Shown: piece by piece, positions 43,556 through 58,210 of the stretch | Numbering within the stretch: position 1 is the first letter of the stretch | Layout of the letters: each line of letters starts with the position of its first letter | Origin: Carboxydocella thermautotrophica | Lineage (GTDB): Bacteria > Bacillota > GCA-003054495 > Carboxydocellales > Carboxydocellaceae | Length of the DNA stretch: 64,000 bases | Assembly: GCA_003054495.1 (NCBI GenBank) | Contig: CP028514.1 | Location: 12,501 to 76,500, forward strand | Reading direction: 5' to 3' | Program-made: the position numbers and the translations under genes | The notes under the pieces: model-generated | The model's input: only the letters and a program-made list of their open reading frames with translations | Told to the model about the DNA's origin: nothing | The model's database searches: none

Positions 43556-44257
43556 TTGATTGTACCTAACTATTTTACTATTATAAAAGCATGGAATATT
43601 ATCCATTGGAGAAGCAACAAAGTCCGGCAGGGTTTTCGGGAGTTGATCAGGAATGCCAGAGAAACACGAGAAGAACAAATTAGCATAACTGTGTGCGGGG
43701 AGTTTTTTCCAGAGATTTACCCGGCTCACCGGTCTTCGAAGTGGAGCCGGGGCGAAGAAGACCCGCTGACTACGGAGATGCGTCTCTTCTGTGCCTGTAT
43801 GCGGTGGGCCTTTAACCGGCTCCTGGAAGGTGCTTCCCGCCATGAAATCAAGAAGTCAGGACAAGAACTTTTCGGGCTGAACTCCCGCTATACGGATGAT
43901 GCCAGACTTAAAGCACAGGCCCTGCTGGACTCCCAAACAGAACTGCTGAAGTTAGAAAATGAAGAAACAGAAAAGAAACTGGGCCGGGCCAGGAAGAAAC
44001 TCAGCCTGACAGTCAAGGGGCGGAACAATCGGGTGGTTTCACTGGCAAAAAGGCTGGCTGAACTGAAGGATTACCGGGAGAAGGGGACAATACCAGAGGT
44101 AGTCTTTGGGGGCAGAAGGCTGTGGGAAAAGGTCTGCCAGGGCCGGGCCGCCCGTGAAAAATGGCGGCACGCCCGCAGGAATCGCCTCTACTCCTGGGGA
44201 GACGAGAGCAAGGGAGGCAACCCCAACAGGAACTGGTGCAGATATGGCTGGCCATGA
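43556..44257 (+). pseudogene. TnpB-like (IS605 OrfB family) gene, N-terminal fragment
   Basis: About 233 codons. LTTEMRLFCACMRWAFNRLL, DARLKAQALLDSQTELL, the Lys/Arg-rich coiled coil KLGRARKKLSLTVKG, VVFGGRRLWEKV and ARRNRLYSWGDESKGGNPN resemble the N-terminal and bridging region of a clostridial branch of OrfB/TnpB. The true start is unclear because no good RBS is seen. The frame stops at 44257 after a GGNPN block, where homologues continue into strands of the wedge domain. The rest of the protein is in another frame. Confidence 0.7.
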
Positions 44258-45123
44258 AGTTACCCTATGCGGTAGAACTGATCCGCACCCTGGAAGGACG
44301 CTGCTTGGTACATTTGACATTTGAAGTGGTCAGGGTGCAGGAACCGGACTTTGCTAAAGGTTGTCTGGCTATAGACACAAACCCTGATGGGGTAGCCCTG
44401 TGTAACGTTAGCGCTTCCGGCCAGCCGGAACCGTGGGCGGAGGGTTTAAATATTCCTTCTCCCGGCAACCTGGGCAAATACGAAGGAGAGTTTCAGGTTA
44501 TCCCTTACCCGAACGGCTTTCTTTATATCAGAATACCAGACTTAGCCCATGCTTCCAGCTTCCGGCGTAGCTACCTGATAGGCGTTTTAGCCAGAGTAGT
44601 GGTAGATATAGCTTTCTTTTCAGGCAAACCCATTGTTTTAGAAAACCTGAACTTTGGCAAAGACAGACTGGACACTAATAAAAAGTTTAACCGCATGGCT
44701 TCCAATTTTCCATTTGCGAAAATGGTAGGAGCAATGTATCGGAGAGCGGTGAAAGAAGGGGTGCCTTTCAAGTTAGTATCACCCCGGCATACTTCTACCA
44801 TAGGTTACTGGAAGTATATGAAACGTTACGCCGTTCCGGTGCATTGCGCGGCGGCACTGGTTACAGGTCGCCGGGCAATGGGGTTCAGGGAACGGGTGAC
44901 TGAAGAACTCAGGCAACTGGTATCGCAAATCAAGCAAAACCTGACCCGGAAGGTTAATCCTGATAGACCTGAGGAAGGAAAAGGGATGACCCGTAGGGTC
45001 AGGGCCTGCTTGAGGCGGCTGGAGGAGAGGCTTCCTGTGCATAACGGGCTTGCCCAGAGTGAGCAGGAGGCGTATAACTCCGTCTGGCCTGACCTGAAGT
45101 TATTGGCCCTGTCCGTACGGTGA
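44161..45123 (+). pseudogene. TnpB-like (IS605 OrfB family) gene, C-terminal fragment in shifted frame
   Basis: Meaningful homology begins at about 44230 (QIWLAMKLPYAVELIRTLEG). RuvC-I-like Asp in CLAIDTNPDGVAL, RuvC-II-like Glu in KPIVLENLNFG. Where canonical TnpB has a CxxC zinc ribbon and a final Asp, this branch has SPRHTSTIGYWKYMK, VHCAAALVTGRRAMGF and no zinc ribbon. A frameshift with loss of perhaps 30 residues separates it from the N-terminal part, so the gene is probably dead. Confidence 0.7.
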
Positions 45124-45948: not shown

Positions 45949-45978
45949 AGTATTTTGCAGTTAGGTAGGGAAAGGAAA

Positions 45979-46731
45979 ATGAGGCTGGATATTATCTTGA
46001 AAACCAAAGACAAAGAAGTTCTATTACCTTTTAATTATCAGTATCAGATAACTTCGTTTATTTATGAGATGGTTGCAAAATCATCACCTGATTATGCTAC
46101 TAAACTTCATGATGAGGGATTTGGAGAAAAGAGATTTAAATTTTTTACCTTTTCTCAAATTGTAGCAAGAAAGAAGAAAATTGTTTCTGATGGTGTTTGG
46201 CTATTTGGCGAGTTTGTCTTGAAAATAAGTTCACCTCTTTACGATTTTTTATTTCACTTGTTAAATGGGCTTTATAAACAAAATAATATCAAGATTGGTA
46301 GAGAAATCTTTTTGATTAAAGATATTTTACTTTATGAAAATCCAGTAATTAAATCGGGAATGAATTTTGTCTGTCTGTCACCTATTGTGGTAAGCACAAT
46401 AAAAGATGACTTTTCTACACCTTACTATATTAGATATACAGAGGAACCCGAGTTGTTTAATGAAAAATTACGCCAAAATCTTATCAGAAAATATCAAACA
46501 TATTATGGACGGGCGCCGGCGGCAGATAATTTACAAATTGTTTTTGATCAAGAATACCTTCAGAGACATAAGGGTACCAAGCTAATTCATTATCGTGATC
46601 AAAAAATCCTGGGTTATTTGGCTCCCTTTACTATTTATGGGTCTGATGAACTAATTACTTTTGGTTATGATACAGGTTTTGGAGAGAAAAACAGTATGGG
46701 TTTTGGGTTTGTAGAGCTGAGGAAAAGATAA
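45979..46731 (+). CDS. cas6: CRISPR-associated endoribonuclease Cas6
   Basis: 250 aa. Ferredoxin-like double fold with the C-terminal glycine-rich loop GFGEKNSMGFGFVELRKR, the Cas6 signature; a candidate catalytic His lies in TKLHDEGFG near residue 42. It cuts pre-crRNA in the repeats. AT-rich compared with pth. AAAGGA RBS. Only 30 nt after pth, so it may be read from the pth promoter, and it has its own terminator, separate from the other cas genes. Confidence 0.9.
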   Translation: MRLDIILKTKDKEVLLPFNYQYQITSFIYEMVAKSSPDYATKLHDEGFGEKRFKFFTFSQIVARKKKIVSDGVWLFGEFVLKISSPLYDFLFHLLNGLYKQNNIKIGREIFLIKDILLYENPVIKSGMNFVCLSPIVVSTIKDDFSTPYYIRYTEEPELFNEKLRQNLIRKYQTYYGRAPAADNLQIVFDQEYLQRHKGTKLIHYRDQKILGYLAPFTIYGSDELITFGYDTGFGEKNSMGFGFVELRKR

Positions 46732-46736
46732 AAGAA

Positions 46737-46779
46737 GCCCCGAAAATCTTCTTCTAAGAGGATTTCGGGGATTTTTTTT
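46737..46779 (+). terminator. Terminator between cas6 and cas4
   Basis: GCCCCGAAAATC and GATTTCGGGG pair with one bulged A around a 12-nt loop; ATTTTTTTTA follows. The AT-rich 46780-46858 probably holds the promoter of the next seven cas genes. Confidence 0.85.
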
Positions 46780-46858
46780 ATGAATTTTATTACATAAAAA
46801 GGAAAATAAGATGGAATGTAGAAAATAAATATATAAAAAATGGTTCCAAGGTGAAATT

Positions 46859-47365
46859 ATGCAAAATTACTTAATGGAGCTTGAGTTGGGTGGGCTTGAA
46901 ATTAATTACTATTTTGTGTGTAAGAGAAAACTCTGGCTTTACTCCAGATATATTAGGCAAGAAACTAATCATGATCGTGTAGAACTAGGGCAATTTATTC
47001 ATGAAGAGTCATACCGGAGGCAAAAAAAAGAAATCGAAATCGGATCCATAAAAGTAGATTTACTTCAAGATGGGGCAATATGTGAAATAAAATTATCATC
47101 CAGGATGGAAGAAGCTCATTTGTGGCAATTATACTATTATCTTTATTATTTAAAAAAGCAAGGCTTTAATCAGGTGAAAGGAGTGCTTTTATTTCCTAAA
47201 GAAAGGAGAAAAAAAGAGGTGATTTTGACCCAGGAGGTAGAAAAGGAACTAAAAAAAATTATCGCTCAAATTATCACAATAAAGAAGGAAGAATTACCAC
47301 CTGAAAAACTGAATAAACGTAGTTTTTGCACTAAATGTGCATACTTTGAGTTTTGTTACGCCTAA
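46859..47365 (+). CDS. cas4: CRISPR-associated exonuclease Cas4
   Basis: 168 aa. Fe-S cysteines: one in YFVCKRKLWL near the N-terminus and three in SFCTKCAYFEFC at the C-terminus. RecB-type nuclease motifs: ELGQFIHEESY, IKVDLLQDGAICEIKLSSRM (Asp and E-x-K). It trims prespacers before integration. It is placed first in the effector operon, not beside cas1. Confidence 0.93.
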   Translation: MQNYLMELELGGLEINYYFVCKRKLWLYSRYIRQETNHDRVELGQFIHEESYRRQKKEIEIGSIKVDLLQDGAICEIKLSSRMEEAHLWQLYYYLYYLKKQGFNQVKGVLLFPKERRKKEVILTQEVEKELKKIIAQIITIKKEELPPEKLNKRSFCTKCAYFEFCYA

Positions 47366-47383
47366 GAGAGGAGGTGATCCGTG

Positions 47384-48709
47384 ATGAAATATTTCACTTA
47401 TACCGGCAATCCCTTTATTGATACGGGATTGAATGTTGTTTTATCCTGGCATAACAAAAAAGCTCCAGAAGAACTAATAGTTGAGGACCTGGAAAAAATG
47501 ATTGAGATTTCTGCCAGACTTTATGGCAGCGAAAAATGGCTGAAAAATCTTTATTCTGTTTTTCCCAATAACCCCTTTACCAATCCTTCAATTAAAAATA
47601 AGGAATCTAGATACCTGGAATTCATGAATGATTTAAAAAATAATATTAAACCGTTAGATACTGGACGTGGTTGTGTTGGTTGTGGCAAACGTGAACCATA
47701 CAAAAAATTTACTAAGACAGATATACCACTTACAGGTACAAAGGATTTGAGAAATTTATTTCCGGCGGCTGAGGCAGGAGAGAGTTATTGCGCTCTTTGT
47801 GCTATGCTTATTCAGTTTATGCCAATGGCTTTATTTGCTTGTGGTGGACGATTCATGCTAGTTCACTCGGCAAATTCAGAAATAAATGGAATATATGTCC
47901 GGCGATGTTTAAAAGAAATAAAGCAACAAATAGCTTTGGGGGATATGTCAGGTGTCTTTGACCAGGGTTATAAAAACCCGATAAATGCTCTTTTTTTCCT
48001 TGCTGAAGAAATTGTCAGGGATATTAATGATTTTTTTGATGAACCGGTAATGGTAAGAATTTATAGTTTCACAAACTATAACCAATCGCCGGATTTAAAT
48101 ATTTATGATTTACCGGCTCCTGTTTTTTATTTCATTGTGCAAGCACAGAGGAAAGGTTTTACACAGGCTTGGAATGAGCTGAAAAACAAAGGATATACAG
48201 GAAAAAAAGCAGAAAATACCAGTAAGGAAAAACGCAAAAACCTTAATAACGAAGTCTTATTAAAGCTGTTAAATGAGGAGAGCGTTGTACCATATTTTTT
48301 AAACATAAGCACACGATCTATTGTTGGAAATTTTGAATTTTTATCCTTATATTTGAAGGAGGTGAGGAGATATATGCAGAGAAGAATTGAATCAATAAAA
48401 AGATTAGGAGATGAACTGGCGATATTTATCCGGGAAAATAATGACCAAAGAAGACTTTATCTTTTAGAAACAGTAGACAAGTTTGATGACTTTAGAAATC
48501 AGCTGCGGATAATTTATCGTAAGCGTTTAGACATGGGAATTTCCACACCACTATTTACAGTTGATGAATATGTGGAAAATCTTTTTCCTGATGGCCCAGT
48601 GAACTGGAGAGAAACCAGAGATCTAATACTTTTCAGAATATACGAAACTTTATCAGGCTGGCTGGCAGAAAATGCAGGGGAAGAAAATGAGGAGGAGGAA
48701 GAAGAATGA
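47384..48709 (+). CDS. cas8b: Type I-B large subunit Cas8b (Cst1 family)
   Basis: 441 aa. FTYTGNPFIDTGLNVVLSW is the Cst1-type N-terminus; two zinc-binding pairs, GCVGCGKREP and SYCALCAML, follow. The C-terminal end is a run of Glu (EENEEEEEE). Recognises PAM and anchors the Cascade complex. ATG 47384 (GTG 47381 is possible) with GAGGAGGTGA. It overlaps cas7 by 4 nt (ATGA). Confidence 0.88.
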   Translation: MKYFTYTGNPFIDTGLNVVLSWHNKKAPEELIVEDLEKMIEISARLYGSEKWLKNLYSVFPNNPFTNPSIKNKESRYLEFMNDLKNNIKPLDTGRGCVGCGKREPYKKFTKTDIPLTGTKDLRNLFPAAEAGESYCALCAMLIQFMPMALFACGGRFMLVHSANSEINGIYVRRCLKEIKQQIALGDMSGVFDQGYKNPINALFFLAEEIVRDINDFFDEPVMVRIYSFTNYNQSPDLNIYDLPAPVFYFIVQAQRKGFTQAWNELKNKGYTGKKAENTSKEKRKNLNNEVLLKLLNEESVVPYFLNISTRSIVGNFEFLSLYLKEVRRYMQRRIESIKRLGDELAIFIRENNDQRRLYLLETVDKFDDFRNQLRIIYRKRLDMGISTPLFTVDEYVENLFPDGPVNWRETRDLILFRIYETLSGWLAENAGEENEEEEEE

Positions 48710-49701
48710 GAAAACATTGTCTTGGTTTTGTGTTGATTGATGCACCTCATTCAGCACTGAACAATGCTGGTACGGATGAAGGGGCGAGAACGGAAAATAC
48801 TATTGCAGTTAAAAAAATAAAAAAAGGGCGAGAAGTTTATCCGTATGTATCTGCCCAGGCGTGGAGATACTGGTGGCGAGAAGTATTAGGCAGTAAATTT
48901 AATTGGACAATGTCACCGATTGCCCGAGAATCTAAAACAGCTTTTACAGAAAATAATCCTTTGAAATATTATGATGATGATGTATTCGGGTATATGCGGG
49001 CAGAAAAAAAGGAGACCTTTACCAGAGTGTCACCTTTGAAATGTTCGCCTTTAGTTTCAGTTGTGCCATTTAAACCTGTTGATGATTTCGGGGTTATGGC
49101 CCGCCAAGAAGGGGATCCTGTGCCTTATGAGCATCAATTTTATTCTACTGTTCTAAAAGGAATTTTTGCCCTTGACCTCGATAGTGTAGGTCGCTTTACT
49201 ACTGTTAATAAGACTGGTTTTAAAAATATTAGCAAAGAACTGTTACAAAAAGCCCATGATTTTAATGCTCAAGTAGTGGATGGAGAAGCTATTCTTACAG
49301 CACAAGAGCGAGCCAAACGGGCAAAAGAAACTTTGTTAGCTCTGGCCTATTTATTTGGTGGAGCCAAGCAAACATTACATTTAACAGATGTATCCCCAAA
49401 ATTCATCATTTTACTTATCCTGGATGGAGGAAATCATCTGCTGATGAATGTTACAGGGGAAAAAGAAGGAAAACCCATAATTAACTTTGATTATTTAGAA
49501 GAGGTTTTATTGGATTATCAGGATAGTATTGTTTCCAACGTATATATAGGCAAGGCCAGTGGCTTTATGGATGAAGTAGATTTGAATAGATTTAAAGCTC
49601 GTATGGCAGAGAAAGGCTTTGCGCGTATAGAGATAGGTACAGTTAAACAGATGATTGAAAGTTTTGCGGACGAAGTTGAAAAATATTATCTGGAGAGATA
49701 A
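48706..49701 (+). CDS. cas7: Type I-B Cascade backbone Cas7 (Cst2/DevR family)
   Basis: 331 aa. LGFVLIDAPHSALNNAGTDE, VYPYVSAQAWRYWWREVLG and the TRVSPLKCSPLVSV block are of the DevR/Cst2 family. Coats the crRNA spacer. Coupled to cas8b by an ATGA overlap; cas5 follows after 2 nt. Confidence 0.92.
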   Translation: MRKHCLGFVLIDAPHSALNNAGTDEGARTENTIAVKKIKKGREVYPYVSAQAWRYWWREVLGSKFNWTMSPIARESKTAFTENNPLKYYDDDVFGYMRAEKKETFTRVSPLKCSPLVSVVPFKPVDDFGVMARQEGDPVPYEHQFYSTVLKGIFALDLDSVGRFTTVNKTGFKNISKELLQKAHDFNAQVVDGEAILTAQERAKRAKETLLALAYLFGGAKQTLHLTDVSPKFIILLILDGGNHLLMNVTGEKEGKPIINFDYLEEVLLDYQDSIVSNVYIGKASGFMDEVDLNRFKARMAEKGFARIEIGTVKQMIESFADEVEKYYLER

Positions 49702-49703
49702 CG

Positions 49704-50354
49704 ATGAAGGTCTTAAAAGTAATAATTAAGGGAATTACGGCATCCTTTCGCTATCCCCTTTTTATCAGCGGTTATCAGCCAACGCTATCAGTTCCTCCTC
49801 TTTCTACAGTTCTAGGATTGCTTTCTGCAGCAGCTGGGAAAGTAATAGATCAGGTTGATTTTGGTCTGGCTTATAATTTCACTTATGAAGCCCGGGCAGT
49901 TGATCTGGAAACAGCGTATGAAATAGGTGACAACCTATCTTTTAAGACCAATGTATGGCGCAGAGAATTTCTTTTTCATCCAGAACTTACGTTATATGTT
50001 ACAGATTTAGAACTTCGTCCAATTTTTGAAAAACCTGTTTTTCAGTTATTACTAGGGAGAAGCCAGGATTTGGCTCAAGTTGCAAAGATTGAAGAAATTG
50101 AACTTATGCAAACATCTAAAGCTATATTAAAGGGGTGTATTGTTCCTGCTGATACACCAGGAGCTATAGGGCCATTGGTCTCTTTGCCAGTAATGTTTGA
50201 TAGCCATTTTCCTCGAAAAAGATTAAAAGCTGATAAATTCATTATTGTCGACCGGGAATGCCAGATTGAATACGAGCGTAATCTTTATATTGATTTGGCT
50301 GAAAGCAGAGGAGTGTTCTTGTATGAACCAGAATATTTTAGCCAAGCCGGATGA
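49704..50354 (+). CDS. cas5: Cascade subunit Cas5 (Cas5t)
   Basis: 216 aa RAMP protein. LKVIIKGITASFRYPLFISG and PTLSVPPLSTVLGLLSAAAG are the Cas5 N-terminal signature; GAIGPLVSLPVMFD lies later. Binds the 5' handle of crRNA. Overlaps cas3 by 32 nt. Confidence 0.9.
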   Translation: MKVLKVIIKGITASFRYPLFISGYQPTLSVPPLSTVLGLLSAAAGKVIDQVDFGLAYNFTYEARAVDLETAYEIGDNLSFKTNVWRREFLFHPELTLYVTDLELRPIFEKPVFQLLLGRSQDLAQVAKIEEIELMQTSKAILKGCIVPADTPGAIGPLVSLPVMFDSHFPRKRLKADKFIIVDRECQIEYERNLYIDLAESRGVFLYEPEYFSQAG

Positions 50355-52491
50355 AAGTTTGCAAGAACATACTCATAAAGTCCTAAAAGTTTTACGTAAC
50401 TTAATGAATGTTTATAGAAATGCCCCGGTTTATACCGGGGATATCCTTTTTTACAAAAAACTTTTCTGGGCAGCATTTTTACATGATTTCGGTAAAGGGG
50501 CTCTTGGATTTCAAAAACAACTCACGGAAAAAAAGCGTTGGGGCTTCCGTCACGAGCTTTTATCAACGGCATTTTTGAATTTTTTACCGTTTTCCGATAA
50601 AGATAAAGAAGATATTGCCTTATGGATAGCGACACATCATAAAGATCTATTTTTATTACGGGAAAGATATCTAGATAAAGAAGTTTTAAATAAACGTTTT
50701 GAAGAAATAAAACCCTATATGGATGATTTGTTTAAATTATTACAATATGGTGGTCAACTTTATTATGAAGTTTTTGGGGAAAAGGTTGATTTTGTAGAAA
50801 AAGAATTAGTAGAAGTATCAAGTATTGTTAGCATTATTTTGAAACAAATAAGAAAAATAAAATTTGTTGATGATATATCAATAAAAGATAAAATGTTAGG
50901 TTTTTTAGGCAGAGGCTTTTTGATTGCAGCTGATCATCTAGCATCGGCTGGTAAAACATATATTGAAAGATTTTCATCTCCTTCAGAGGTTTATAAATTT
51001 TCTAACTTGTTTTCTACACAGAAGTACTGCCAAAATTACAGAGATAATTTATTACTTATTGCTCCTACAGGTTCCGGTAAAACAGAAGCGGCGTTATTTT
51101 GGAGTGAAGCTAATCAAAGTGAAGGAAATGGGGATCGAGTATTTTATATACTACCCTATACTGCTAGCATCAATGCGATGTATGAACGCCTAGCCAAGGA
51201 TTTTGGCGAAAAAAAGGTCGGTTTTTTACATGGAAAAGCAGCTTATTATCTCTACAAAAAATTAAATGAGGATGATTTAAAGAAAATACGCGATCTTAAA
51301 GATTTGAATCATAAGATATTTAAACCAATAAAAATTATGACGCCATTTCAGTTAATAAAAACGTTTTTTGGCATTAAAGGTTTTGAAATGAATTTAGCTG
51401 AGTTGCTAGAAGCTAAAATTATTATAGATGAGGTACATGCGTATGATCCCCGTACCATTGCTTTATTACTTTCATCTTTAAGGTACTTACAGAAAAACTT
51501 TAATGTGCGTATTTTAGTAATGTCAGCGACTATTCCAAGATTTTTAAAAGAGCTCATCATGCAAAAACTTACTATTAATCAAGAAATTTCTTTAACCCCG
51601 AATGAGTGGAACAGATTTACGCGCCATCGTGTAAATATTTTGCAAGGAGATATATTTGATCACCTTGCCTTAATTAGAAAGCATATAGAACAGGGGAAAA
51701 AAGTACTAGTAATTTTAAATACAGTAAAAAGGGCTCAAGAAGTTTATCAATTATTTTTTGATATTCCCTGTCATAAAAAACTTTTACATGGCAGATTTAT
51801 TCAACGGGATCGGGAGGCTATTGAAAAAGAGATATCTAAACTTGGTTTATTAGTAGCTACCCAGGCGGTGGAGGTTTCGCTAGATATTGATTATGATCTT
51901 CTATTTACAGAACCAGCTCCATTAGATGCCCTTTTGCAACGTTTTGGCAGAGTGAACAGAAGAGGTAAAAAAGGTATTGCTGATGTTTTTGTGTTTTCTA
52001 AAGGAAGTCGAGAAGACAAATATATATATCAGCCGGAATTAGTAAATAGAAGTATTGAGGTTTTAGAAAAAGTAGATATATTACAGGAAGTGAAAGTTCA
52101 GGAAATGATTGATTATGTTTATGAAAATGGTTTTAACCAAAAAGCACAGAGTCTTTATGATGAAGTTGAAACTAATATGAATAGTTTATTAGATAGTTTA
52201 TATCCATTTATAGTTTCTGAAGAAAACGAGGAACGATTTTATCAGCTTTTTAATTCTATCGATATTGTACCGGAACGTTTTTATGGGGAATATATAGATC
52301 TAATTGAAAAGGAAAAATATTTTGAAGCAATGGGATATATAGCCAGCGTGAATTTTGGTCAATTTATTAAGTTGAAAAAACAGGGGCTTATTTATCAAAA
52401 GGAAGACACACTGATAACAAGTTGCCGCTATGATGATGAAATAGGACTAGTAATAGATGAACCGGAAAGGGTTTTGGAAAACTTTTTCTAG
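50323..52491 (+). CDS. cas3: CRISPR helicase-nuclease Cas3
   Basis: 722 aa. N-terminal HD nuclease: EHTHKVLKV, FLHDFGKGALGF with His54-Asp55, RHELLSTAFL, ATHHKD. SF2 helicase: Walker A APTGSGKTEAAL (Lys253), DEVH at 369-372, VMSATIPRF, and QRFGRVNRRGK (motif VI). Degrades target DNA after Cascade binding. ATG 50323 has AGAGGAG upstream; an upstream in-frame start is inside cas5 without an RBS. Confidence 0.94.
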   Translation: MNQNILAKPDESLQEHTHKVLKVLRNLMNVYRNAPVYTGDILFYKKLFWAAFLHDFGKGALGFQKQLTEKKRWGFRHELLSTAFLNFLPFSDKDKEDIALWIATHHKDLFLLRERYLDKEVLNKRFEEIKPYMDDLFKLLQYGGQLYYEVFGEKVDFVEKELVEVSSIVSIILKQIRKIKFVDDISIKDKMLGFLGRGFLIAADHLASAGKTYIERFSSPSEVYKFSNLFSTQKYCQNYRDNLLLIAPTGSGKTEAALFWSEANQSEGNGDRVFYILPYTASINAMYERLAKDFGEKKVGFLHGKAAYYLYKKLNEDDLKKIRDLKDLNHKIFKPIKIMTPFQLIKTFFGIKGFEMNLAELLEAKIIIDEVHAYDPRTIALLLSSLRYLQKNFNVRILVMSATIPRFLKELIMQKLTINQEISLTPNEWNRFTRHRVNILQGDIFDHLALIRKHIEQGKKVLVILNTVKRAQEVYQLFFDIPCHKKLLHGRFIQRDREAIEKEISKLGLLVATQAVEVSLDIDYDLLFTEPAPLDALLQRFGRVNRRGKKGIADVFVFSKGSREDKYIYQPELVNRSIEVLEKVDILQEVKVQEMIDYVYENGFNQKAQSLYDEVETNMNSLLDSLYPFIVSEENEERFYQLFNSIDIVPERFYGEYIDLIEKEKYFEAMGYIASVNFGQFIKLKKQGLIYQKEDTLITSCRYDDEIGLVIDEPERVLENFF

Positions 52492-52504
52492 GGGGATATC
52501 TTTT

Positions 52505-53488
52505 ATGAATAGAACTATTTATATATTTAACAATGGTAGATTGAAAAGAAAAGATAACACATTATATTTTGAAACTGAAGAAAATAAAAAACCTTTGCCA
52601 ATAGAAAATATAGAAAGTATATATTTTTTTGGTGAGATAGATTTAAACACTAAAGCCGTTAACTTTTTGGCACAAAATAACATAAGTTTGCATTTTTTCA
52701 ACTACTACGGGTTTTATACGGGCAGTTTTATACCAAGGGAGTATTTAAATTCTGGATACCTCCTGGTGAAACAGGTAGAACACTATCTTGACCGGGAAAA
52801 AAGAATGGTTTTAGCAAAGGAAATAGTTGAAGCTGCATCGGACAATATTTTAAGAAATTTATATTATTACAAAAATCGCGGTTATGATTTGGAACATGAA
52901 ATTTCAGGTATAACAATCTTAAAGAAAGAGATCAATAAAACAAAAGAACCAGAAGAGCTAATGGCAATAGAAGGGAACATACGACAGTATTACTATCGTG
53001 CTTTCCCAATAATAACCGGATACGAAATGGAGAAAAGAGTAAAAAGACCGCCAGACAATATCTTGAATACATTAATTTCATTTGGAAATACCGTTTTTTA
53101 TACTACAGTTTTATCTCAAATATATCATACTCAATTAAATCCAACTATAAGCTACCTACACGAACCAGGTCAAAGAAGGTTTTCACTGGCTTTAGATCTA
53201 AGTGAAATTTTTAAACCAATAATTGTGGATAGAGTGATTTTTACGGTTTTGAACCGCAATATAGTTACCGAAGACGACTTTAATGTTGAAGAAGGTTACT
53301 GTTTTTTAAAAGAAAAGGGTAAAAAAGCTTTTTTACAAACCTATGAGGAGAAACTAAGAACAACAATAGAGCATAGAACCCTTAAACGCCATGTATCATA
53401 TCGCACTTTAGTAAAATTGGAGGCCTATCGATTGATCAAACATCTCATTGGTGATGAAAAATATAAAGGGTTTAGAGCGTGGTGGTAA
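52505..53488 (+). CDS. cas1: CRISPR integrase Cas1
   Basis: 327 aa. N-terminal beta domain (TIYIFNNGRLKRKDNTLYFE) and the helical catalytic domain with Glu156 (AIEGNIRQYYY), His219 (YLHEPGQRRFS) and Asp231/Glu234 (LALDLSEIFKP). Integrates new spacers with Cas2. ATG 52505 has AGGGGGAT upstream. cas2 starts 2 nt after its stop. Confidence 0.95.
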   Translation: MNRTIYIFNNGRLKRKDNTLYFETEENKKPLPIENIESIYFFGEIDLNTKAVNFLAQNNISLHFFNYYGFYTGSFIPREYLNSGYLLVKQVEHYLDREKRMVLAKEIVEAASDNILRNLYYYKNRGYDLEHEISGITILKKEINKTKEPEELMAIEGNIRQYYYRAFPIITGYEMEKRVKRPPDNILNTLISFGNTVFYTTVLSQIYHTQLNPTISYLHEPGQRRFSLALDLSEIFKPIIVDRVIFTVLNRNIVTEDDFNVEEGYCFLKEKGKKAFLQTYEEKLRTTIEHRTLKRHVSYRTLVKLEAYRLIKHLIGDEKYKGFRAWW

Positions 53489-53489
53489 T

Positions 53490-53753
53490 ATGTATATAGT
53501 CATTGTTTATGATATTGGAGAAAAAAGAGTTGCGAAGGTATGCAAGTTTTTAAGGAAATATCTTTATTGGGTACAAAACTCTGTATTTGAAGGAGACTTG
53601 ACAGAAAGTCAATTTGAAAAAGTAAAACATGGATTAAAAAAATTAATAAAAGAAGATGAAGATATGGTGTTGTACTATGTTTTTTCCACTCCTAAATGGG
53701 TTGAAAGAGGAATTTTAGGTAAAGAGAAAAATCCCATTGATGCTTTTTTGTAA
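53490..53753 (+). CDS. cas2: CRISPR adaptation protein Cas2
   Basis: 87 aa. MYIVIVYDIGEKRVAKVCKF with the conserved Asp, then KYLYWVQNSVFEGDLTESQF and VLYYVFSTPKWVER. Forms the Cas1-Cas2 integration complex. Last cas gene before the leader and array. Confidence 0.95.
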   Translation: MYIVIVYDIGEKRVAKVCKFLRKYLYWVQNSVFEGDLTESQFEKVKHGLKKLIKEDEDMVLYYVFSTPKWVERGILGKEKNPIDAFL

Positions 53754-53909
53754 ATACAGCAGGAAAAGAAGGGAGAGGTATAGAATAGATATATGTGTAA
53801 ATTAATTGTTATCGTCGCTACCCCAGCATAATTACATTATTATAGGTAGACGACATTTTTGGCTTACTAACCATCCTGAAAGCCTTATTTTTTCTGGCTT
53901 TCAGGATGG
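53754..53909 (+). promoter_or_regulatory. CRISPR leader with promoter and hairpin next to the first repeat
   Basis: AT-rich. A possible promoter is TTGTTA (53806-53811), 17-nt spacer, TAATTA (53829-53834). GTCGCTACC (53814-53822) and GGTAGACGAC (53845-53854) pair with one bulge and precede ATTTTT, so a cas-operon terminator is an alternative reading. A perfect 14-bp inverted repeat, CCATCCTGAAAGCC (53871-53884) with GGCTTTCAGGATGG (53896-53909), ends directly at the first repeat. Confidence 0.7.
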
Positions 53910-56900
53910 GTCTTAATAGAACCATTGTGGGATGGAAACTGATAACGAAGGCATCAGCCCTAATCTGGCCTACTGGGTCTTAATAGAACCATTGTGGGAT
54001 GGAAACGGAGAGGTCTTGGGGGAATGCCTTCCTCAGCGCCAGAGTCTTAATAGAACCATTGTGGGATGGAAACCTAGGCCGGTGACGGTGTAAGGCTTCC
54101 CCTTTTCGTCAGTCTTAATAGAACCATTGTGGGATGGAAACGCACTGCAAGCAGTAATAAAAAAGCGAAAAGGTAAGGTCTTAATAGAACCATTGTGGGA
54201 TGGAAACCACCTCTCCAAAGCCTGCATTATGCGTGGTACAGCATGTCTTAATAGAACCATTGTGGGATGGAAACCTTGTCAGGTATGCTGTTATTTTCAA
54301 GGGTTGCATTAGTCTTAATAGAACCATTGTGGGATGGAAACGGCTCATGCGCCGCAGACTGGAAGATGGCGGGGGACTGTCTTAATAGAACCATTGTGGG
54401 ATGGAAACGCCGGCATGGCTATGCAGGACTTAGCCAAGTACCAGGTCTTAATAGAACCATTGTGGGATGGAAACAATAGTGTGATAATAGAAAACGTCTG
54501 CTGGGGGCTGGGTCTTAATAGAACCATTGTGGGATGGAAACCTCCGGCAGCGCGGGATGCGCTGTCAGGGGCGGCTATTTGTCTTAATAGAACCATTGTG
54601 GGATGGAAACACTGGTGTGGTAAAGACGGCAAATGGCAAGACGTCTGTCTTAATAGAACCATTGTGGGATGGAAACCAAGCTTGTCCATGCCAAACTTGC
54701 GGATCCGATCAGGTCTTAATAGAACCATTGTGGGATGGAAACTGATGGTGGCAAGAAAGGAGGAGTAAATCATGATTTGTCTTAATAGAACCATTGTGGG
54801 ATGGAAACGTTCTGATGCCAGTATGGTGGCCGATAGCCATACCAGTCTTAATAGAACCATTGTGGGATGGAAACCAAGTTAGCTCCCTGCAGGTCAGCAC
54901 CCCTCAGGTCAGTCTTAATAGAACCATTGTGGGATGGAAACCCGGGTGCTGGAGGCAACATGAGAGAACGGCGCTTTGTCTTAATAGAACCATTGTGGGA
55001 TGGAAACATATCGGGCCGGGAAAAGCAAGGAAGAGGCTATGGCCGTCTTAATAGAACCATTGTGGGATGGAAACATATAATTTCAGCGAGGAGGTGGCAA
55101 AAGCCTGTGCTGTCTTAATAGAACCATTGTGGGATGGAAACCGCCCGGTGATTATCAACCTGCTGTTTGGTCATATAGGTCTTAATAGAACCATTGTGGG
55201 ATGGAAACCCAGTAGGAGAGAGCCGGTGTAGCACAGCACCGGTGGTCTTAATAGAACCATTGTGGGATGGAAACGGCTCCTGCTCTGGTCAAGCACCTGG
55301 GCTATGACTGTCTTAATAGAACCATTGTGGGATGGAAACTCGCAGCAGGAAGCAAAATCTACTGGGATGCTGTAAAGTCTTAATAGAACCATTGTGGGAT
55401 GGAAACTTAGGTGTATATCTCAGTTCCGGGTCGGCTGTCAGCCGTCTTAATAGAACCATTGTGGGATGGAAACCAATAGAAGAGATTAAGCCCGCACATC
55501 TCGCAGTGGGTCTTAATAGAACCATTGTGGGATGGAAACAGTCAGCAAGGGTAGGCCTCGTTCTGGGAGCATTTTCAAGTCTTAATAGAACCATTGTGGG
55601 ATGGAAACCAACTGCGGAACTATGGCATATTGGCGACGGAGCAAGGTCTTAATAGAACCATTGTGGGATGGAAACGTTCATAATCCAGGACTTCAGTCAA
55701 TGTCAGCAAATTGTCTTAATAGAACCATTGTGGGATGGAAACACAACAAGCCATTTGTTACTATCAGTCTTATCCAAATAGTCTTAATAGAACCATTGTG
55801 GGATGGAAACAGTGCAGAGCCAGCTCAACGACCTGCGCCGCCAGGAGTCTTAATAGAACCATTGTGGGATGGAAACAGGTATAATTTGCATAAAAACTGT
55901 ATAAACTTAGTATGTCTTAATAGAACCATTGTGGGATGGAAACGAAGCGGGGCCGGCAATTGAGGCGGGAGTTTGCAAAGTCTTAATAGAACCATTGTGG
56001 GATGGAAACTTCTAGTCTGGATTTTATGTGTTCAGGCAATCTAAGTCTTAATAGAACCATTGTGGGATGGAAACCTTGGATGGCTAGCTCTATAACGTCT
56101 GGCTCAACATGGTCTTAATAGAACCATTGTGGGATGGAAACATGCAATATCTAACCCATCTCGTAAGAGAAGTATTGGTCTTAATAGAACCATTGTGGGA
56201 TGGAAACGCGGCAGTGCCGGAACAGCCCTATATACGTGGCCAGTCTTAATAGAACCATTGTGGGATGGAAACATGAAGCATACAGGGTCGCTGCACTCAG
56301 CGATAATCGTCTTAATAGAACCATTGTGGGATGGAAACCCAAAGATTCATTCTTGATATTGGAGGTGAAACCGAGTCTTAATAGAACCATTGTGGGATGG
56401 AAACATGCCAACGCTTATCATGCCTCCTCGATGCCCCTCTAGTCTTAATAGAACCATTGTGGGATGGAAACGGCGCATCCGGGAACTGAACCGAACTTGG
56501 CGCAGGAGTCTTAATAGAACCATTGTGGGATGGAAACGCTGTTGCTTACAGACAAGTTACAAGTGAGCAACCAGAGTCTTAATAGAACCATTGTGGGATG
56601 GAAACTTGGCGCCAGGATGGAGCATCAGCACTTCGCAAGTATCGTCTTAATAGAACCATTGTGGGATGGAAACGAATTAATTCCGTGTCGGTGAAAACAA
56701 CCCCATCTGCGTGTCTTAATAGAACCATTGTGGGATGGAAACAAATACTCAAGGTAGGCATAATCAATGTTTGTGCCCGTCTTAATAGAACCATTGTGGG
56801 ATGGAAACCAGCATGGGTAAGTGATTCGGTGATATTGGCCGCCGGTCTTAATAGAACCATTGTGGGATGGAAACTTGGGACTGTTGGTAATTTTGCCTAC

Positions 56901-57139
56901 CAGAGGCTCCCGTCTTAATAGAACCATTGTGGGATGGAAACCGGCTTCCTTGCGCAGCTTTTCCCGCTCGTCGCTCAGTCTTAATAGAACCATTGTGGGA
57001 TGGAAACGGTGGAAAACTTGCTCTGGCGAGAAATAGCAGCTGCGTCTTAATAGAACCATTGTGGGATGGAAACCTCTATCTCATCATTCAGCTTGGCCAA
57101 TTCCAGCCGGTCTTAATAGAACCATTGTGGGATGGAAAC
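53910..57139 (+). CRISPR. Type I-B CRISPR array, 49 repeats and 48 spacers
   Basis: The 30-bp repeat begins GTCTTAATAG and ends GGATGGAAAC. Counting repeat starts from 53910 to 57110 gives 49 copies spaced 65-69 nt, so spacers are 35-39 nt. All copies I read, including the last, are identical. The 3' end ATGGAAAC is the usual 8-nt 5' handle, so transcription runs left to right from the leader beside cas2. Peptides such as LNRTIVGWK predicted here are repeat translations, not genes. Confidence 0.99.
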
Positions 57140-57207: not shown

Positions 57208-57465
57208 ATGAAGATAGTTAAAATGAAGGATGTAATAAAAAGGTTTGGTGATGTTATAGCTTTAGACAATGTAAATTTAGAAATAGAGGAAGGAGAAATT
57301 TACGGTCTATTGGGGCCTAATGGGGCAGGTAAGACAACAGCTATAAGCATAATCTGCGGCTTGCTCAATTTTGATAGAGGAAAGGTGTATGTTTTTGATA
57401 AAAATATACGCAAAGAACCGGAATTCATAAAGAAGAGTATAGGTATTGTGCCGTCTTTTTCTTAG
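57208..57465 (+). pseudogene. Truncated ABC transporter ATP-binding protein
   Basis: 85 aa of an ABC ATPase N-terminus: VIKRFGDVIALDNVNLEIEE, Walker A in GLLGPNGAGKTTAISIICGL, and KKSIGIVP where family members continue to the Q-loop. The frame then ends after SFS. Signature and Walker B are missing. ATG 57208 has AAGGAGAGGG upstream. The cut coincides with the end of a transposase remnant. Confidence 0.8.
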
Positions 57466-57826: not shown

Positions 57827-58210
57827 ATGGAATTGGTCGCCGCATGCCTGGCAGCACTAGTAGCCGTCCTCTTTAATCGCCGGGTTCAAGCAGAGACCGG
57901 CTGGCAAATTGCAGTCATAACCGCCCCACTAATCGAAGAATTAGCCAAAACCGGTTTCGCTAAAATCCTATCAGCCCAGGTATTACCCGTGCACCTCTAC
58001 TTCGGCCTCATTGAAGCAATCTACGATGCCTGGGCCAAACCTGAGCGCCATCTTCTGCCGGCCCTGCTCAGCCTGCTCAGCCACGGCTTTTTCGGCTATC
58101 TCACTGTCAAAAGCGGCATCCTTGCTGCCCTGTTCGCCCATTTCTCCTGGAACGGTCTGATCTGGTACATGCAGAGGAGGAGGCAAAATGCGGGTAATAT
58201 ATTATTGTGA
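57827..58210 (+). CDS. Small membrane protein resembling PrsW/CPBP intramembrane proteases
   Basis: 127 aa, several hydrophobic segments. Conserved-looking motifs: EELAK (Glu37, Glu38, Lys41), GLIEAIYD (Glu63), SHGFFGYL (His86) and AHFSWNG (His105, Asn109), which match the order of acidic and His motifs in PrsW-like glutamic/metallo proteases. Much shorter than PrsW. AGAAGGAGGATAGGGC RBS. It overlaps the next small gene by 23 nt. Function unknown. Confidence 0.65.
   Translation: MELVAACLAALVAVLFNRRVQAETGWQIAVITAPLIEELAKTGFAKILSAQVLPVHLYFGLIEAIYDAWAKPERHLLPALLSLLSHGFFGYLTVKSGILAALFAHFSWNGLIWYMQRRRQNAGNILL

Follow-up and report, generated by a model that had tools for sequence, protein, structure and literature searches.

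Leaders of type I-E and I-F CRISPR systems carry an IHF site together with an upstream motif, and in the type I-E ones IHF bends the leader at a place that corresponds to the hairpin, IR2, considered here. The role of IHF in both leader types is named in the sections of a study of Sulfolobus islandicus (PMC9456107) on which we draw, and the same sections treat the question of how Cas1-Cas2 locates the correct array end without IHF as open in most bacteria. According to them, in the type I-A system of S. islandicus Cas1 binds a leader-proximal stem-loop (-25 to +7) regardless of its sequence, the accessory factor Csa3a binds a distal motif (-143 to -94), and mutating either the proximal or the distal region lowers acquisition (PMC9456107). 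Binding to stem-loops was likewise seen for the Cas1 proteins of P. furiosus and Synechocystis; the S. islandicus Cas1 bound a single-stranded hairpin and not a double-stranded probe, and the authors call the in vivo role of their stem-loop unclear (PMC9456107). When the CRISPR locus is missing, Cas1-Cas2 integrates near inverted repeats capable of forming cruciforms, as stated in a section of a review (PMC9180970).

The S. islandicus stem-loop with its distal motif is the best functional match for the leader that we describe from the window, i.e. the whole 64,000-nucleotide stretch of Carboxydocella thermautotrophica DNA analysed here. Like the archaeal leader, it has a stem-loop at the leader end beside the first repeat (IR2) and a separate motif upstream (IR1), and in both cases the stem is kept while sequence and loop differ. 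Unlike it, our locus is bacterial and of type I-B, its stem lies wholly within the leader (-39 to -1 as against -25 to +7), the distal motif is a 44-bp palindrome, Cas1 binding is a prediction, and no Csa3-type accessory factor scores above threshold. Csa3 (TIGR01884) reached its cut-off in none of seven genomes, which would leave the part of distal partner to some other protein. Type I-E and I-F leaders similarly place before the first repeat two elements that could guide integration, with different sequences. A hairpin at the leader end of the array is also known from Cas13 systems, where it blocks extraneous crRNA; in that work (PMC13187072), those hairpins pair the leader with the first repeat, unlike IR2 with both arms in the leader, and extraneous crRNA of Class 1 systems is placed at the last repeat. 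A block of extraneous crRNA through leader-repeat pairing was rejected for the window given the location of both arms and a predicted leader-repeat pairing of 0.02.

A type I-B leader with two palindromes

The type I-B cas operon (cas6, cas4, cas8b1/cst1, cas7, cas5, cas3, cas1 and cas2; 45955-53753, plus strand, as are all stranded features below) encodes the full set of Cas8b, Cas7, Cas5, Cas3, Cas6, Cas1b, Cas2 and Cas4, every protein, Cas8b1/Cst1 included, exceeding its NCBIfam cut-off. It is followed by a leader of 156 nt from the cas2 stop to the first repeat (53754-53909), which has homologues in the genomes G088 and G122, and by an array of 49 repeats of 30 nt (53910-57139); the repeat occurs 49 times genome-wide, every copy within this array. 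The cas1 gene (52457-53488; TIGR03641, type I-B Cas1b) has its nearest relatives in G088 and G122, the latter being Carboxydothermus islandicus, which carries the same Cas1 at locus L215 (NZ_BDJL01000003.1); a Cas1 search gave identities of 88 and 89%. The cas1-cas2 part of the locus (52457-53753) thus has a Cas1 88-89% identical to that of Carboxydothermus, a member of a different class, as against only 49% to the order-level relative G002, and horizontal transfer of the cas locus is therefore likely.

Around the locus, two overlapping frames at 43556-45123 match TnpB, one its N-terminal and the other its C-terminal part, and represent a probably broken IS605-type TnpB near the cas operon; past the array, at 57209-57465, a short and apparently truncated frame resembles by eye an ABC transporter ATP-binding protein at its start. 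That the same-species genome G001 lacks the locus could not be used: an assembly gap is likely there, as pth is missing too and the contig stops some 350 bp before the point matching window position 58000, on its upstream side.

IR2 is a perfect 14-bp inverted repeat whose left arm CCATCCTGAAAGCC (53871-53884) and right arm GGCTTTCAGGATGG (53896-53909) enclose an 11-nt, AT-only loop TTATTTTTTCT (53885-53895). The outer end of the right arm, AGGATGG, lies at the junction, and its final base directly precedes the first repeat GTCTTAATAGAACCATTGTGGGATGGAAAC (53910-53939). Coordinates, arms and loop agree with what the first-pass annotation had reported. Folded alone as RNA the element reaches -26.5 kcal/mol (z -8.5, none of 200 shuffles equal) and as DNA -16.1 kcal/mol (z -8.9), and in a census of perfect inverted repeats over the whole 64-kb window (arms of at least 10 bp, loops of 3-20) its arm is the longest, the runner-up having 13 bp. 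The annotation was also right that this is not a normal terminator: the search for terminator-like sites returned none, and the stem is followed by GTCTTAATAG and not directly by a U-run, and a Rho-independent terminator was dropped. A sigma-A promoter search in and upstream of IR2 in these leaders gave nothing that clearly exceeds shuffles, and the only Rfam matches were to repeat families, none reaching the gathering score, and, on the minus strand, to Histone3, also under its threshold and judged by us to be chance.

The second palindrome, IR1 (53811-53854, 44 bp, ATCGTCG ... AGACGAC, no strand assigned), lies some 55 bp ahead of the first repeat on its upstream side and is a degenerate copy of a Bacillota-wide leader motif, GTCGTCGA..TAxTGxAAAAA..TCGACGAC, with one mismatch per arm and unchanged spacing. 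The motif was seen in 76 leaders, in 72 of which the arm starts are exactly 37 bp apart, a frequency biased by the fact that these leaders were partly gathered by the model itself. Occurrences in either orientation are spread over Bacillota type I-B leaders, and a few come from leaders of MAGs labelled Kapaibacterium, Aquificales and KSB1; in the window clade the motif is reversed and sits nearer the array than it does in the main group. In that main group its distances to the first repeat show a period of 11.7 bp (R 0.44, 61 deduplicated leaders), a value reached by a proportion of 0.0005 among 2000 jittered sets, a significance inflated by related genomes. It suggests that the distance may be helically phased. 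No description of either palindrome was found among literature titles, in which subscription journals are thinly covered, and IR1 may be described there.

Conservation and rarity of the leader-end hairpin

Leaders of relatives were gathered by searching the G088 leader within its family, which gave several leaders, and by a covariance model built from eight leaders, which also found G086 and G364 of another family. IR2 is in place in seven array-bearing leaders from the window genome, two genomes of a second genus and one of another family (window, G088c41, G088c27a, G122c3a, G122c10a, G122c10b and G086), with a diverged form in G364; two further leaders, G088c27b and G122c3b, are relics with no array at that place. 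In G050, a Carboxydothermus genome which we take to be C. hydrogenoformans, loci L130 and L133 appear by eye to hold a relic leader and degenerate repeat copies of this type. A pattern search allowing up to three mismatches, in which each palindrome may appear on both strands, located IR2-like sequence at nine places in five of 398 genomes: seven adjoin arrays of at least three repeats, one is a relic leader and one lies elsewhere (G294). The same search with the pattern written backwards gave no match in the 398 genomes. The presence of IR2 in the same place in leaders of relatives excludes chance, and IR2 is a real, clade-specific leader element. The five array-bearing Carboxydothermus leaders fold at -19 kcal/mol or lower; in the array-less G088c27b the pairing is mostly lost (-7.8 kcal/mol), though the relic G122c3b retains its stem (-18.7 kcal/mol).

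The two arms do not vary alike. When the seven array-bearing leaders are compared column by column, G364 and the relics left out, the outer seven columns are variable in all seven positions of the left arm and in none of the right (two-sided Fisher test by hand, about 0.0006, with columns picked after viewing), and over all 16 columns per side the count is nine against three (p 0.066). All seven leaders keep most pairs of the inner stem; one pair is altered on both sides in two sequences, and others have turned into G-U. No whole-structure measure of covariation exceeded shuffles, and covariation was rejected as a proof of pairing; wobble and other mismatches are too scarce to tell DNA from RNA pairing. 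The outer stem is broken in the Carboxydothermus leaders, and the complement is perfect in the window only and nearly so in G086. The loop of relatives has 7 nt, a T-tract in Carboxydothermus and AAAAAAT in G086, which indicates that the element was turned round in the latter, while in the window two lost loop-side pairs and a full outer stem yield the perfect 14 bp. The element thus has two overlapping layers, a primary-sequence leader end and a clade-specific stem-loop built upon it.

A general rule of a junction hairpin in all type I-B leaders was rejected. Among 101 loci, drawn from part of the Cas1 places, 73 had an array of at least three repeats, and the 50 nt before the first repeat gave z < -2 in seven of these, the window being the strongest (-6.3). 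The 80 loci from named genomes included 58 with arrays, where only L215, L255 and L264 fell below -2. In the pooled and deduplicated set of 128 leaders, from which leaders short of upstream sequence were dropped, the interval -40 to 0 gave z < -2 in 10 and z < -3 in five, and each of seven other intervals gave z < -3 in 0 to 3 leaders. Beyond the window clade there are two strong cases, L190 (G119) and L069 (G097), unrelated leaders with z of -4.5 and -3.3 over the last 40 nt; one of the two pairs an A-tract with a T-tract, and they are possibly independent. The long G088 array L200, whose repeat matches 27 of 30 bases by hand, has no hairpin, and other arrays of the same genome do. This absence, with the rarity among type I-B leaders, makes the stem-loop a clade feature, and type I-B integrases do not generally need the inverted repeat.

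The junction sequence itself is the part that is broadly shared across type I-B leaders. The 50 leaders whose repeat is of the AGCCTACC class end with A (82%), Y (88%), G (84%) and G (88%), and among the other 78 the closing GG alone is strong (77 and 72%). The right arm of IR2, whose outer seven bases are unchanged in all seven leaders, closes with ATGG and so fits the terminal AYGG.

A proposed integration mark and its competitors

The first-pass annotation had offered a leader-anchoring signal or protein site as one explanation. This explanation is the best fit, given that the element is in place in leaders of relatives and resembles the Cas1-binding stem-loop of S. islandicus; yet the perfect 14 bp proved special to the window genome, the outer left arm is unconserved and most type I-B leaders do without a stem-loop. 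The S. islandicus layout and the known integration near cruciform-forming inverted repeats lead us to favour IR2 as a leader-proximal DNA mark for the spacer integrase, a proposal that we hold to be about evenly balanced between right and wrong. Its right arm, ending in the leader-terminal ATGG, would be a primary-sequence signal adjoining the Cas1-Cas2 target site, as its conservation suggests; the upstream complement would in this clade make of the leader end a stem-loop, or a small cruciform in supercoiled DNA, which Cas1 could read by shape as it does in S. islandicus, and IR1 may be a distal docking or accessory-factor site. Integration would then depend on the sequence of the right arm as well as on the shape of the stem. 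The reversal of the loop in G086 relative to Carboxydothermus is expected if shape and not loop sequence matters. Against an integration mark stand the many type I-B leaders, L200 included, that have no stem-loop, and the broken outer stem in Carboxydothermus. Beside the observed position, fold, conservation pattern and leader specificity of IR2, and the observed order IR1-IR2-repeat, we infer that Cas1 would bind IR2, that a cruciform may form and that acquisition would be affected.

An RNA hairpin at the 5' end of the pre-crRNA, shielding the fold of the first repeat for Cas6, is in our opinion unlikely, though it deserves a hearing: IR2 would sequester the leader-end GGATGG, a copy of the 3' arm of the repeat stem (GGGATGG), from the CCAT of the first repeat. 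The predicted mean probability that a first-repeat base pairs with the leader is 0.02-0.03 in the window and climbs to about 0.48 once the left arm has been shuffled or removed, and in a comparison with shuffles that spare just the last 14 bases the window (0.02 vs 0.44) shows the largest effect of 133 leaders; G122c10a (0.14 vs 0.35) and G364 (0.04 vs 0.25) agree, and the inner-stem changes in array-bearing leaders are mostly G-U or compensated. The effect is nevertheless little in G122c3a (0.32 vs 0.43), G122c10b (0.36 vs 0.42) and G086 (0.02 vs 0.08) and goes in the opposite direction in G088c41 (0.47 vs 0.35) and G088c27a (0.45 vs 0.35), no promoter is prominent upstream of IR2, and the trend over the 133 leaders is small (mean -0.03, Wilcoxon p 6e-5, with related sequences). 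RNA insulation as a conserved role was rejected, not being kept in G088.

The symmetric arms around an AT-rich core of free orientation, and the A-tract-bearing, fixed-length palindrome IR1 upstream, could also make IR2 a dyad site in double-stranded DNA where a dimeric architectural or regulatory protein meets arms split by an AT tract; with the outer half conserved asymmetrically and a candidate protein not found, we think it rather improbable. It is quite doubtful, finally, that the stem-loop is a by-product of a right arm conserved for its sequence, to which the left arm is repeatedly matched by template-switch correction of quasi-palindromes. Such a process would suit an invariant right and a variable left outer arm, a complement that is perfect only in the window and nearly so in G086, and a loop reversed as a whole in G086, but the inner stem is kept in seven array-bearing leaders of three genera, and the array-less G088c27b has lost most of its pairing, though the relic G122c3b has not.

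Extending the DNA-mark proposal, we may suggest, tentatively and with more doubt than confidence, that Bacillota type I-B leaders hold an IHF-free integration module in which IR1, a fixed 44-bp palindrome at helically phased distances from the first repeat, docks the adaptation complex via a DNA loop and IR2 completes the target by shape in the window clade. IR1 may in this respect be the more general discovery of the two. In a leader whose stem-loop can be detached and whose sequence end can be separated, recognition of shape and of sequence can be tested apart, and a thermophile genus offers arrays with and without the hairpin within one genome, G088.
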